Shown here piece after piece: positions 14,338 through 31,684 of a stretch of 32,199 nt of DNA (position 1 is its first letter; each line of letters starts with the position of its first letter). This stretch comes from an uncultured Spartobacteria bacterium (GTDB lineage Bacteria > Verrucomicrobiota > Verrucomicrobiia > Chthoniobacterales > Chthoniobacteraceae), in assembly GCA_903929475.1 (NCBI GenBank), contig CAIYUV010000209.1:1-32199 (forward strand), given 5' to 3'. A program made the position numbers and the translations under genes. The notes beneath the pieces were generated by a model that was not told the DNA's origin, ran no database searches, and was given only the letters and a program-made list of their open reading frames with translations.

Positions 14338-14368
14338 AATGACGGATGACAAATGACGGATGACGGGC
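14338..14368 (-). repeat. Heptamer tandem repeat, locus A
   Basis: Read on the minus strand the bases are GCCCGTC, ATCCGTC, ATTTGTC, ATCCGTC, ATT and then CAA ATG. They form a 7-base periodic tract that ends 3 bases before the start codon at 14334 of the methyltransferase-like gene. It occupies most of the 75-base gap after the GT2 gene ending at 14410. The rest of the gap (14369-14409) is AC-rich with no other feature seen. Confidence 0.75.
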
Positions 14369-27388: not shown

Positions 27389-27685
27389 TTGAAAAGAAAA
27401 TCAACATACGCTTGTGCCCTCGCAAGCCGGGAAAGGCACGAAAAAGTCGCAGCAGCAGACGAGAATGAGGGTATGGCCTGCCGCCCCCGCTCATCCACAG
27501 CCGTGCTTTGGCGAAACCTTCCATTGAAGATTTCTGTTTTCGCCCAGCCTGCCAGCAACCGTTGATCCGGATGCCTTGCAGTGTGGGTGTATATCGGGGA
27601 AGTCTGGCGGCGAAGCACGACACGATTCGACATTCGACATCCGTCATTTACACCCTCGCCCGTTTTTTAGAAAAGCATCGCGCAC
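27389..27685. promoter_or_regulatory. 297-base divergent intergenic region
   Basis: No convincing gene is present; the overlapping frames at 27381-27647 on the minus strand lack any known sequence and overlap the 5' end of the methyltransferase gene. The region must carry the promoters of the leftward wzm/wzt unit and of the rightward GT2-asnB unit. It contains a short hairpin-like GCTTG...CAAGC (around 27412-27428) and heptamer locus B (27625-27649). A TATATC sequence at 27590-27595 is the best -10-like candidate, with no correctly spaced -35. Confidence 0.4.
27625..27649 (+). repeat. Heptamer tandem repeat, locus B
   Basis: Units on the + strand are ATTCGAC, ATTCGAC, ATCCGTC, then ATTT. 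The 11 bases ATCCGTCATTT are identical to a stretch of locus A, and the orientation is the same relative to the downstream gene. It lies about 36 bases before the start codon of the GT2 gene at 27686. Confidence 0.7.
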
Positions 27686-28633
27686 ATGCTCTCCATCGCC
27701 ATTCCGATTTGTAACGAAGCCGCCAATATCGGGCCGCTTTATGAAAAAGTTCGCGGCGCGATGGAAAAAATCGCGCGTCCGTGGGAATTGATTCTCGTGA
27801 ACGACGGAAGCACGGACGGCTCGGATGAATTGCTCGACGAGATCGCGGCGAAGGACGAGCGGGTAAAAGTGGTGCATTTCCGCCGCAATTTCGGACAGAC
27901 GGCGGCGATGATGGCCGGGTTCGATTTTGCGAAGGGGGACATCATCATCCCGATGGACGGCGACCTGCAAAACGACCCCGAGGACATCCCGCTGCTGCTC
28001 GCGAAACTGGAGGAGGGCTTCGATGTGGTAAGCGGTTGGCGCAAGGACAGGCAGGACAACGCCATTAAAAGAAACGCGCCAAGCATCATGGCGAACCGCC
28101 TCATCTCGTGGGTGAGCGGCGTGCGGCTGCACGATTTCGGTTGCTCGCTGAAGGCGTATCGCCGCGAAGTCGTCGAGGGCGTGCGGCTCTACGGCGAGAT
28201 GCACCGCTTCCTTCCCATCTACGCAAAATGGCACGGCGCGGAAATCACCGAGGTCGTCGTGCGCCACTACGCGCGCACTGCGGGCACGAGCAAATACGGG
28301 CTGGAGCGCGTGCTGAAAGTTCTCGCCGATCTCATCACCGTCAAATTCCTCGACCGCTATCAGCAAAAGCCGATGTATCTTTTCGGCGCGTGCGGATTGC
28401 TCTCGCTCGCATTCAGCGGCTTTTCCGGAGTCTATGCACTGTGGCGGAAGTTTGTGAACGGCGAATCTTTCATCCAAAATCCGCTGCTCATGCTCTGCGT
28501 GGTGACGGGGATGATCGGCATCATGTGCTTCCTCATGGGCCTGCTCGCCGAGATGATCATGCGCACCTTTTACGAGAGTCAGGGAAAGAGCGTCTACATC
28601 GTGCGGGCCACGCGCAACGTGGAGGGAAAATGA
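27686..28633 (+). CDS. Membrane GT2 of the ArnC/DPM1 type (polyprenyl-phosphate sugar transferase)
   Basis: 315 residues. GT-A motifs: LSIAIPICNEAANIGPLYE, ELILVNDGSTDGSDELL, the metal site PMDGDLQNDPED (89-100), and VVSGWRKDRQDN. Two membrane helices follow at the C-terminus (about 231-253 and 266-290). This is the GtrB/ArnC/DPM1 family, which transfers a sugar from a nucleotide to undecaprenyl phosphate to give a lipid-linked donor for periplasmic glycosylation. The ArnC-type tail (ESQGKSVYIVRA) is present. ATG 27686 follows heptamer locus B and fits the family start. A lipid-linked donor would be used by a GT-C enzyme outside this window. Confidence 0.9.
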   Translation: MLSIAIPICNEAANIGPLYEKVRGAMEKIARPWELILVNDGSTDGSDELLDEIAAKDERVKVVHFRRNFGQTAAMMAGFDFAKGDIIIPMDGDLQNDPEDIPLLLAKLEEGFDVVSGWRKDRQDNAIKRNAPSIMANRLISWVSGVRLHDFGCSLKAYRREVVEGVRLYGEMHRFLPIYAKWHGAEITEVVVRHYARTAGTSKYGLERVLKVLADLITVKFLDRYQQKPMYLFGACGLLSLAFSGFSGVYALWRKFVNGESFIQNPLLMLCVVTGMIGIMCFLMGLLAEMIMRTFYESQGKSVYIVRATRNVEGK

Positions 28634-28640
28634 GCGCGCC

Positions 28641-30533
28641 ATGTGCGGCATAGCCGGTTTTGTCGGGCGTGGCGACCTCGATACGCTGCGCCGCATGACC
28701 GACCGCATATCCCATCGCGGGCCGGATGCGGAGGGGCTTTGGCGCGGGGAAAGTGACGGCGTGCATCTCGGGCACCGGCGTCTCAGCATCGTGGACATCG
28801 GCGGCGGCGCGCAGCCGATGTGGAGCGCCTGCGCAAAGTGCGGCGCGCACGGCGATGTGGGCGTCACTTTCAACGGCGAAATCTACAACCACGCCGAACT
28901 CCGCGCCGAACTCCGCGCGCTCGGTCACGAATTCCAGACCGACCACAGCGACACGGAAGTCCTGCTCCACGCCTATCGCGAATGGGGCGATGCGTTCGTC
29001 GAGCGTCTCAACGGGATGTGGGCCTTCGTCATCCACGACCGTGCGCGGCGGAGGCTCTTCGGCTCGCGGGATCGCTTTGGAAAAAAGCCGCTCTATTGGT
29101 TCCATGAACACGGCACGTTTGCGTGGGCCAGCGAACTTCCCGCACTCACGGAGCACCCCGACTGCCCGCGTTCGCTCGACGCACTCTCGCTCAAAAAATA
29201 CTTCGCTTACTGCTACGTGCCCGCGCCGCGCAGCATCTACGAGCGCGTCTGGAAGCTGCCCGGCGGCCACTCGTTCGTTTTCGATCTCGATTCCGCCGCG
29301 CCGCCTCGCATCTCGCGCTGGTGGTCTTTTGAAATCGAACCCGACACCACGCCGACCGCCGATGAGTGGAGTGAACGTCTCCGCGCCGCCCTCGAACGCG
29401 CCACGCAACGTCGCCTCATGTCCGACGTTCCGCTCGGCGTTTTCCTCAGCGGGGGCATTGATTCCAGCGCCATTGCCGCCTTCGCCGCGCGCCATGTCGC
29501 TGCGGATAAACTGAACACCTTCAGCATCGGCTTCACCGATCCATCCTTCGACGAAACCAGCCACGCGAAGCTTGTCGCTGACACGCTCGGCACTTCGCAC
29601 CGTCACGAAACGCTCGACCTCGAAAAATCGCGCGAGCTTTTGCCCGGCCTCATTGCGCGCCTCGATGAACCACTCGGCGACGGCTCGCTGCTGCCCACGT
29701 ATTTGCTCAGCCGTTTCACGCGCCAGCACGTCACCGTCGCGCTCGGCGGCGATGGCGGCGACGAGCTTTTCGCGGGTTACGATCCGTTCAAGGCGCTGCG
29801 CGCAGCAGAACGATACACGCGTTTCGTTCCACGACCGCTGCATACGGCGGTGAAAATGCTCGCGAGCCTGCTGCCCGTGTCGCACGCGAATATGAGTTTT
29901 GATTTCAAAGTGAAGCGATTCCTCCGCGGGTTGAGCCATCCGCCTGCGCTCTGGAACGCCGCATGGATGAGCGCGCTCGAACCGCGCGACATCGCGGAGC
30001 TGACCGGTTCGCCGTGCGACCCGGAGGAGATTTTCAGCGAGAGCATCGTTGCGTGGGATGCGTGCAAACAGCCGGACATCGTGGATCGCTCGCTGCAATG
30101 GTGGGCGCAACTTTACCTGCAGGACGGCATCCTCGCGAAAGTGGATCGCGCCTCAATGCTCTGCTCGCTCGAAGCACGCAGCCCGTTTCTCGACATCGAA
30201 GTCGTGGACCTCGCCCGACGCATCCCGCACCAGCTCAAACTCCGCAACGGCGAGACAAAATGGATCCTCAAACAAGCACTGCGCGGCGTGATTCCGGATG
30301 CGATCATAGACCGTCCGAAGAAAGGTTTTGGAATGCCCATCGGTCGCTGGCTTCGCGAAGGCCGCTTCGATTTTGATCTCCAAAAAACACCCGCAGGACT
30401 CAACAGGGATTTCATTTCAAAAAAACTCGCCGCCCATCGCGCTGGAAAGGCGGACGAGCGCCTCTTCCTGTGGTGTGAATGGGTGCTGGCTGAGTGGAAA
30501 AATCCGCAATCCGCAATCCGCAATCCGCAATGA
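28641..30533 (+). CDS. asnB: Glutamine-hydrolysing asparagine-synthase-family amidotransferase
   Basis: 630 residues. The N-terminal glutaminase starts directly with the catalytic Cys2 (MCGIAGFVG), with RLSIVDIGG, FNGEIYNH (77-84) and SRDRFGKKPLYW. The synthetase domain has the PP-loop FLSGGIDSSAIAAF (268-281), VALGGDGGDELFAGYDPF, and DRASMLCSLEARSPFLD. Such proteins make asparagine or, in surface-glycan clusters, transfer ammonia to a uronic-acid carboxyl (WbpS-like). The neighbouring WbpP-type epimerase makes the second use plausible. There is a Cys-pair insert (WSACAKCGAHGD, 61-72). The last residues (NPQSAIRNPQ) are encoded entirely by heptamer locus C, so this C-terminus is repeat-derived and probably not part of the fold. 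Start ATG 28641 is 7 bases after the GT2 stop. Confidence 0.92.
   Translation: MCGIAGFVGRGDLDTLRRMTDRISHRGPDAEGLWRGESDGVHLGHRRLSIVDIGGGAQPMWSACAKCGAHGDVGVTFNGEIYNHAELRAELRALGHEFQTDHSDTEVLLHAYREWGDAFVERLNGMWAFVIHDRARRRLFGSRDRFGKKPLYWFHEHGTFAWASELPALTEHPDCPRSLDALSLKKYFAYCYVPAPRSIYERVWKLPGGHSFVFDLDSAAPPRISRWWSFEIEPDTTPTADEWSERLRAALERATQRRLMSDVPLGVFLSGGIDSSAIAAFAARHVAADKLNTFSIGFTDPSFDETSHAKLVADTLGTSHRHETLDLEKSRELLPGLIARLDEPLGDGSLLPTYLLSRFTRQHVTVALGGDGGDELFAGYDPFKALRAAERYTRFVPRPLHTAVKMLASLLPVSHANMSFDFKVKRFLRGLSHPPALWNAAWMSALEPRDIAELTGSPCDPEEIFSESIVAWDACKQPDIVDRSLQWWAQLYLQDGILAKVDRASMLCSLEARSPFLDIEVVDLARRIPHQLKLRNGETKWILKQALRGVIPDAIIDRPKKGFGMPIGRWLREGRFDFDLQKTPAGLNRDFISKKLAAHRAGKADERLFLWCEWVLAEWKNPQSAIRNPQ
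30501..30529 (+). repeat. Heptamer tandem repeat, locus C (4 units) at a gene overlap
   Basis: AATCCGC is repeated four times without mismatch (30501-30528) and the next bases AATGA supply the ATG of the GT4 gene (30530) and the TGA of asnB (30531-30533). A period of 7 read in triplets gives all three frames in turn, so the asnB frame reads N P Q S A I R N P Q over the tract. A change of one unit would shift the asnB frame. Confidence 0.9.
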
Positions 30534-31684
30534 AAGTCTTCACCCTCTGCTACGAATACCCGCCCGTCGGCGGCGGCGGCGGACGTGTGGCGCAGACGGT
30601 CGCGCGCGAACTAGTCCGGCGCGGACATGAAGTGCGCGTGCAGACCGCCGCGCTCGGCTGGAAAAGCTCGGAGGAGGATGACGAAGGTGTCCGCATTTTC
30701 CGCACGGCGAGCGGGCGCGCAAAGGCGGACACCTGCCGCGTTCACGAAATGGGTCTTTTTTGCGCGACTAGTTTTTTTTCCACACTGCGACACATCCGCA
30801 TCTGGAAGCCCGATGTCATCCACGCGCACTTCGCGATGCCCACCGGCCTCCTCGCGTGGGCGGCGCACAAATTTACGCGGACGCCCTACGTCCTCACGGC
30901 CCACCTCGGCGACGTGCCCGGAGGCGTGCCCGAGCAAACATCCACGCTCTTCAGGCTCGTCGCTCCCATCGCGCGGCGCGTCTGGGTTTCCGCCGCAACG
31001 TGCACCGCAGTCAGTTCGTTTGTGCAGGAGCTTGCGCAGCGCGCCTACGGCCGGCCCGTCGAGCGCATCTTGAACGGGATTGATCTCAGCGATGCCCCAC
31101 CACCGCGCGCGCTGTCGCAGGCACCGCGTCGGTTACTTTTTGTCGGACGACTGAGTGTGCAAAAAAATCCCGTCTTTCTCATCGAGGCGCTCGCAAAACT
31201 GCCGCGTCGCGACTGGCATCTCACCATCGTCGGCGACGGCCCGCTTCTCCCCGCTGTCCGCGAGAGCATCCAGACGCACGGCTTTGCCGCCAACGTCACG
31301 CTCGCCGGTTGGCTCGCGGCTTCCGCAGTGCAGCAAAAGCTCCGCTCGTCCGATATTCTCCTCATGCCATCGCTGAGCGAAGGTCTTCCTGTCGCAGCCA
31401 TTGAAGCTCTGAAATACGGCCTCGCCATCGTCGCGAGCGACATCCCTGGTGTGCGTGACGTTTTGGAAAATGGAGTGAACGGCTACACATTTCCAGTCGG
31501 CGACAGCGCAGTATTCGCGCAGCGCCTGGGCAGTCTTTTGTCATCGGAGCAGACGCTAGCGACCATGCAGCAGGCGAGTCTGGAAAAGGCGCGCGCATTT
31601 GATCTCGCCGCAATCACCGATGCCTACGAGCGCACCCTTCGCCTCGCAGCGATGAGCAGGGCGGGCAAAGATAATCCACGTTGA
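30530..31684 (+). CDS. GT4-family glycosyltransferase
   Basis: 384 residues from ATG 30530, which overlaps the asnB stop (ATGA). A GTG at 30494 in the same frame would add repeat-encoded residues and is not preferred. The N-terminal loop is VFTLCYEYPPVGGGGGRVAQTVA, followed by PDVIHAHFAMPTGLLAWA. The donor domain has RLLFVGRLSVQKNPVFLIEAL, HLTIVGDGPLLPAVRES and the EX7E motif E284/E292 in EGLPVAAIEALKYGLAIV. It is a complete, canonical GT4 enzyme. After the stop there is a 75-base gap to the epimerase gene. Confidence 0.9.
   Translation: MKVFTLCYEYPPVGGGGGRVAQTVARELVRRGHEVRVQTAALGWKSSEEDDEGVRIFRTASGRAKADTCRVHEMGLFCATSFFSTLRHIRIWKPDVIHAHFAMPTGLLAWAAHKFTRTPYVLTAHLGDVPGGVPEQTSTLFRLVAPIARRVWVSAATCTAVSSFVQELAQRAYGRPVERILNGIDLSDAPPPRALSQAPRRLLFVGRLSVQKNPVFLIEALAKLPRRDWHLTIVGDGPLLPAVRESIQTHGFAANVTLAGWLAASAVQQKLRSSDILLMPSLSEGLPVAAIEALKYGLAIVASDIPGVRDVLENGVNGYTFPVGDSAVFAQRLGSLLSSEQTLATMQQASLEKARAFDLAAITDAYERTLRLAAMSRAGKDNPR

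Follow-up and report, generated by a model that had tools for sequence, protein, structure and literature searches.

A probable copy of a dispersed four-unit heptamer element at the 3' end of asnB in an uncultured Spartobacteria bacterium

In the 32,199-nucleotide stretch of DNA analysed here (hereafter the window: contig CAIYUV010000209.1, or C209, of GenBank assembly GCA_903929475.1, an uncultured Spartobacteria bacterium designated G000 and represented by one draft assembly of 295 contigs), a tandem array of the heptamer AATCCGC spans the junction between an asparagine synthase-type gene (asnB) and a GT4-family glycosyltransferase gene. A preliminary description had proposed that this array could serve as a slipped-strand switch controlling how the GT4 gene is translationally coupled, and hence surface glycan structure. 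The evidence assembled below makes it probable that the array is instead one copy of a dispersed four-unit heptamer element, spread by copying or insertion, and a length-stable passenger as opposed to a working switch. By this account a 31-bp element, AAT(CCGCAAT)4, would have spread by some copying or insertion process through one uncultured Verrucomicrobiota genus, the copies surviving within genes being those that kept the reading frame in protein loops, linkers or ends. The asnB copy, located at the 3' end of the gene, would add a dispensable NPQSAIRNPQ tail, end exactly at an ATGA overlap, and since then have remained stable in length while decaying by point mutation. Arrival by insertion, neutrality of the tail and the greater age of the overlap relative to the array are the three points in this account that we infer.

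The array at the asnB–GT4 junction

Direct inspection, Tandem Repeats Finder and translation together confirmed that (AATCCGC)4AATGA is the sequence of positions 30501–30533, as first described. Tandem Repeats Finder reported it with a period of 7, 4.4 copies, 100% matches and a score of 62, the highest among its 16 rows for the window. The element proper, four perfect AATCCGC units plus AAT, occupies 30501..30531 of the forward strand, and its 31-bp core recurs in congeners. It closes the 630-aa asnB-type gene (28641..30533, forward strand), which was identified by translation, by its Pfam Asn_synthase and GATase domains, and by the asparagine synthase model TIGR01536, which passed its own cut-off. 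AsnB residues 621–630 (NPQSAIRNPQ) are encoded wholly by the array, the final AAT of which combines with GA to make both the GT4 start codon (ATG at 30530) and the asnB stop codon (TGA), thereby generating a four-nucleotide ATGA overlap at 30530..30533 (forward strand) in which the 'AT' of the ATG constitutes the last bases of the 31-bp element. The GT4 gene itself (30530..31684, forward strand, 384 aa) was recognised by translation and by Pfam Glyco_transf_4 and Glycos_transf_1 domains.

Reading frames computed for arrays of zero to eight units bore out the arithmetic on which the proposed switch was founded: 7 is not divisible by 3, and gain or loss of a unit would change the frame of the host gene and the AsnB tail, and uncouple stop from start. 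The TGA remains on the GT4 ATG only with one, four or seven units; two, five or eight units fuse AsnB to GT4 (five units giving a single frame of 1016 aa), while zero, three or six lead to read-on of some 30 residues in another frame, which with three units ends 101 nt into GT4. However, because the GT4 ATG is placed after the array, it would be kept at any unit number, and the array is only four units long. Furthermore, the stop/start coupling does not need the array, since a 4-nt overlap is common in array-less homologues: among 13 such homologues with an adjoining GT4 gene, 11 have an ATGA or GTGA overlap, the GT4 start of the remaining two lying 2 nt (L017) and 7 nt (L052) past the asnB stop.

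Comparison of 31 asnB homologue loci, 30 of which yielded readable tails (L021 gave none), located the NPQSAIRNPQ tail in the window and in the congener G005, with other endings than these and that of a second congener, G007, in 27 of the 30. None of the 27 shares NPQSAIRNPQ; a tail shared by homologues without the repeat is what the preliminary description had named as telling against it, and this was not seen. On the same count a functional role for the tail was rejected. The G005 array has exactly four units and is identical to that of the window, whereas the AsnB of G007 ends TQQSSISNPQ, its length unchanged and its units point-mutated; DNA identity to the window around the site is 86% and 85%, respectively. 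Because the position is shared, the array would predate the split of G000, G005 and G007, and what is seen in G007 reads as decay in place, not slipping. A fixed unit number, the other outcome that had been named as adverse to the switch, holds as far as these three genomes with the allele go, in a between-species comparison that leaves room for rare slippage within one species. Weakened in this manner by the identical and the same-length decayed alleles of two congeners, a working slipped-strand switch at asnB is not supported, and we regard it as very unlikely; finding a tandem repeat where two genes join does not on its own amount to evidence for phase variation. As a separate observation, in the distant relative G036 a different heptamer array (GAGTTCG / GAGCTCG / GGGTTCG; L023, 3342 onward) begins a few bases past the asnB stop.

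Dispersal and core length of the AATCCGC family

Many copies of the same heptamer array, with a preference for about four units, are present at unrelated places. A 17-base pattern allowing at most one mismatch gave 33 matches in G000, resolving to 17 arrays of which 13 measure 31–34 bp and none is longer; a three-unit pattern gave nine matches in five arrays, and the reversed control of each pattern gave none. When the core is taken to include everything between the outermost in-phase AATs and these AATs themselves, its length is exactly 31 bp for 50 of the 64 arrays from G000, G002, G003, G004, G005 and G007, a set that includes mutual orthologues and from which rows scoring below 15 were dropped (L195 excepted); arrays outside G000 were found via a seed of three perfect units, and shorter ones are thereby under-counted. 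The 31-bp core is also seen in arrays with no surrounding open reading frame (ORF) of at least 150 aa (L140, one of L123 and one of L193), from which it follows that selection on the reading frame alone does not set the length. The three-unit pattern occurs in 11 of the 57 genomes that were screened, G000 among them. A 24-base pattern was found in 6 of 387 genomes of the phylum, again including G000, as against 3 of 387 for its reversed control, indicating a family concentrated in the genus and not in the phylum. A census of 432 kb of G000, conducted on contigs mostly known beforehand to carry the repeat, returned eight period-7 arrays above threshold and none in a Markov control, while periods 4–6, 8–13 and 15–20 together gave three, and six period-14 rows mostly re-counted period-7 arrays.

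The Markov control likewise bears on the suggestion that the array is a product of chance or of assembly. All of the G000 data do come from one draft, but the same allele is present in the separate assembly of G005, and many independent records contain an identical 31 bp; assembly error is disfavoured, since the array would be shorter than a usual short read, and of all the explanations entertained this one is the most remote.

Searches of viral contigs, some of whose DNA may come from hosts, deployed 24-base seeds that hide arrays shorter than 24 bp. The AATCCGC core was 31 bp in 68 of 90 cases without de-duplication, and after de-duplication, by flanks alone, 60 of 77 arrays fell at 28–34 bp, as did 32 of 49 AACTCTC arrays. 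TAACTGA arrays were broadly distributed (24/85 at 28–34 bp; 25/85 at 42 bp or more). Two further families count against a universal four-unit rule: AGTGCTC arrays peak lower (8/13 at 24–27 bp), and AATCCCC arrays are mixed (6/13 at 28–34 bp; 4/13 at 42 bp or more). The four-unit quantum is therefore a property of some heptamer families and not of all. At L403, L417 and L429 (viral contigs) several AATCCGC-type arrays on a single contig are flanked on one or both sides by TCTTC-like words, and perhaps form part of a longer composite repeat.

These length data bear directly on the view that each array is an ordinary microsatellite arising by replication slippage, with four units in genes set by selection for an allowed frame (one, four or seven units). 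That view gains from an in-frame three-unit change at a GFO/IDH/MocA gene (see below), and from sites where the words differ between species yet are homogeneous within each array, as slippage would give. Frame selection alone nevertheless fails on three counts: the same word occupies many unrelated genes with a fixed phase and a 31-bp core, copies persist without a long ORF around them, and others are found in viral contigs. The TAACTGA arrays, by contrast, show a broad spread of lengths. The microsatellite account is consequently judged unlikely, though less so than the switch.

Host genes and orthologous sites

Pfam named 39 of 40 ORFs scanned around arrays, drawn from 53 loci of which 13 were not scanned. 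The hosts include UvrA, UvrC, GMP synthase (GuaA), NAD synthase (NadE), ThiC, a CysN/APS-kinase protein, quinolinate phosphoribosyltransferase, U32 peptidases, an FtsJ-type methyltransferase, CobW, GFO/IDH/MocA, GntP and several PSCyt2 (DUF1549) proteins. The family is accordingly found in genes for DNA repair and for GMP, NAD and thiamine and is not tied to glycan genes; the mostly housekeeping character of the hosts speaks equally against the switch. The 39 arrays lying inside the span of Pfam-supported ORFs include some that may precede the true start. None of the six reading frames of the AATCCGC word contains a stop, yet among arrays scoring at least 18 in 36 ORFs, 36 are in the sense orientation, some of these possibly 5' of the true start codon (e.g. 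L190, L192, L209), and three are antisense; one antisense array of 17 bp (L179) and two sense arrays of 16 bp (L182) fell below the threshold, and the count leaves out L130, L214 and L215. Proteins may tolerate the peptide NPQSAIR better than ADCGLRI.

At several of these sites, arrays of similar size but different sequence are present in other species. The GuaA site carries AATCCGC in G007 and G003, an AATTCAA/AATCCAA array in G004, CTCTCAA in G002, and no array in G000, G001, G006, G008 or G009. The ThiC site has AATCCGC in G007, a TCACCAG-like array in G004, an ACTGATT-like array in G003, and none in G000, G001 or G006. Comparable differences in word were recorded for an aldehyde dehydrogenase (AATCCGC in G003, CTCTCAA in G002, GAGCACT-like in G004), CysN (AATCCGC in G007, AATCCGA-like in G004, AAATCTT-like in G002) and the site designated U32b (AATCCGC in G005 and G007, CATCCGA-like in G000). 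At NadE, AATCCGC-type arrays in three genomes correspond to ACTCCGC in G003, a result from one orthologue comparison only, the anchor used in word-free scoring having found no site there. In the arrays at GuaA and ThiC of G004 and U32b of G000, a single triplet occurs five times at intervals of 7 nt, spanning 31 bp. In word-free scoring of 28 orthologues lacking a perfect family array, ten reached 17 or more self-matches in 24 with a period of 7, and none did so with a period of 5, 6, 8 or 9; the ten include UvrC of G004 and G002, which are AATCCGC arrays decayed at about constant length, and CysN of G004, a near variant. The other 18 of the 28 showed no array by this period-7 measure. Around its array, UvrC (L217–L225) exists in the genus as two unlike alleles, and G005 and G007, although near to G000 elsewhere, have the array-less form, which suggests gene exchange.

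A number of observations weigh against the reading of the asnB array as a length-stable copy of a spreading element. Unit numbers do at times change elsewhere: at GFO/IDH/MocA, G003 has an array 21 bp shorter than that of G004, and in a glycosyltransferase gene on contig C159 of G000 (L130 / L334, ~30524–30848) the array measures 18 bp as against 32 bp in G007, a two-unit (14-bp) difference that breaks the frame, so that the two halves of a gene open in G007 and G005 lie in different frames. This is the kind of event that the preliminary description had imagined, in a member of the same repeat family and in another glycosyltransferase gene, and it counts to that extent in favour of the switch; the G000 gene may be dead, may be switched off or may reflect an assembly fault. 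Of the 64 cores, 14 are not 31 bp (10, 17, 24, 38, 45, 52 or 157 bp), some arrays are much longer (one of 159 bp in G007, another of 141 bp in G010), and the left border is uncertain in that the base before the core is A or C in 47 of 50. Nor is period 7 dominant in stretches chosen by contig number alone and scored at a looser threshold, its share being 1/6 (G007, 200 kb), 3/12 (G003, 185 kb), 0/2 (G001, 200 kb) and 0/4 (G018, 187 kb). In-frame copies and array-less alleles coexist in conserved genes, yet no clean empty site and no target duplication were seen at the orthologous sites compared, GuaA and U32a among them, and the net difference to array-less alleles varies (21 nt at GuaA, 36 nt at U32a). 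Finally, no spreading machinery was identified among the candidates sought in ten congener genomes, themselves drafts that are 76–100% complete: reverse transcriptase was rejected on matching three of the ten (G001, G003 and G006), five of the six array-bearing genomes having no match; Ku was rejected on matching one (G002); and Y1 transposase, present in all ten, was non-discriminating.

Selection of the array near genes as a quadruplex-forming or RNA-binding regulatory element was also considered. The preference for four units combined with dispersal parallels that recorded in Xanthomonas and Nostoc (PMC4692102), and some copies stand just before start codons (GntP, L190; BatA, L209). ViennaRNA with quadruplexes allowed nevertheless predicted none on either strand of AATCCGC, while under identical settings quadruplexes were predicted for GGGAATC and GGGGATT, and a quadruplex explanation was thereby rejected for this family; the predicted folding of the sense strand of the array is weak. 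Given in addition that Pfam-supported ORFs span 39 of the arrays and that some orthologues have unrelated words or no array, a regulatory origin appears highly improbable.

Elsewhere in the window, two further heptamer arrays were noted. One, at 14338–14366, approximates to four copies of ATGACGG (~80% matched); the other, at 27625–27648, is a decayed array of ATTCGAC (3.4 copies) some 40 bp before the ORF at 27686 of a GT2 gene, the latter, as identified by Pfam, being the gene upstream of asnB. On contig C58 of G007 (L209 / L346), an extra stretch before a BatA-type gene carries two four-unit arrays in opposite orientation and is absent from that place in G000 and G005.

Relation to known heptamer repeats

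Dispersed tandem heptamers are familiar from the STRR sequences of cyanobacteria, and small dispersed elements in frame inside protein genes from the Rickettsia palindromic elements. The latter resemble the present family in their in-frame spread, but are longer and palindromic, whereas the AATCCGC element is tandem and 31 bp in length. Within the scope of one open-access library, no paper was found that linked heptamer repeats to Verrucomicrobia, Chthoniobacter or STRR.

The closest parallel is provided by the GGGAATC and GGGGA(C/T)T heptamers of Xanthomonas and Nostoc, which Rehm et al. (2015; PMC4692102) describe as dispersed, as made up of four units explained by quadruplexes, and as differing in length and sequence between related species at shared places. 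The same authors report 186 arrays in one xanthomonad and 183 in another, G-rich and quadruplex-forming, of which 89% and 93%, respectively, are intergenic, together with convergent array pairs. The AATCCGC family is likewise dispersed and four-unit, and the oppositely oriented pair before the BatA-type gene of G007 recalls the convergent pairs; it differs in its lower number (17 arrays in G000), in the location of many copies in coding frames, and in having no G-runs and no predicted quadruplex. Four tandem heptamers are also common to the 49 elements of Geobacter metallireducens, which lie within and between genes (PMC2700814) and were proposed as regulatory RNA elements; the word there is GC-rich (GGGACCG) and differs from AATCCGC. 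The TAACTGA heptamers of the Beggiatoaceae are described (PMC4679880) as dispersed direct repeats with two to six copies per set, some of them located in ORF ends or overlapping these and most just upstream of start codons, their manner of spread not having been established; AATCCGC arrays are, by comparison, often inside coding frames and have a narrow length peak, where those of TAACTGA in viral contigs are broad.

The absence of a predicted quadruplex means that the four-unit size of AATCCGC needs another explanation. A more speculative proposal, possible but doubtful on present evidence, is that an active process in these bacteria writes or rewrites heptamer arrays of set size (~31 bp, three turns of DNA) at preferred permissive genic sites, largely independently of the word, and that it also produced the heptamers of four units known from Xanthomonas, Nostoc and Geobacter; were this so, the four-unit rule would reflect length-measuring machinery and not quadruplex folding. 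More generally, the AATCCGC family, matched as it is at some sites by other heptamers, points to a way of making repeats that has yet to be identified, and a family of the same size that is free of G-runs and in frame in genes for repair and nucleotide synthesis makes the quadruplex explanation of four-unit heptamers testable. The family is best filed among the dispersed heptamer repeats, alongside those of Xanthomonas, Nostoc and Geobacter, as a variant whose size needs a non-quadruplex explanation.
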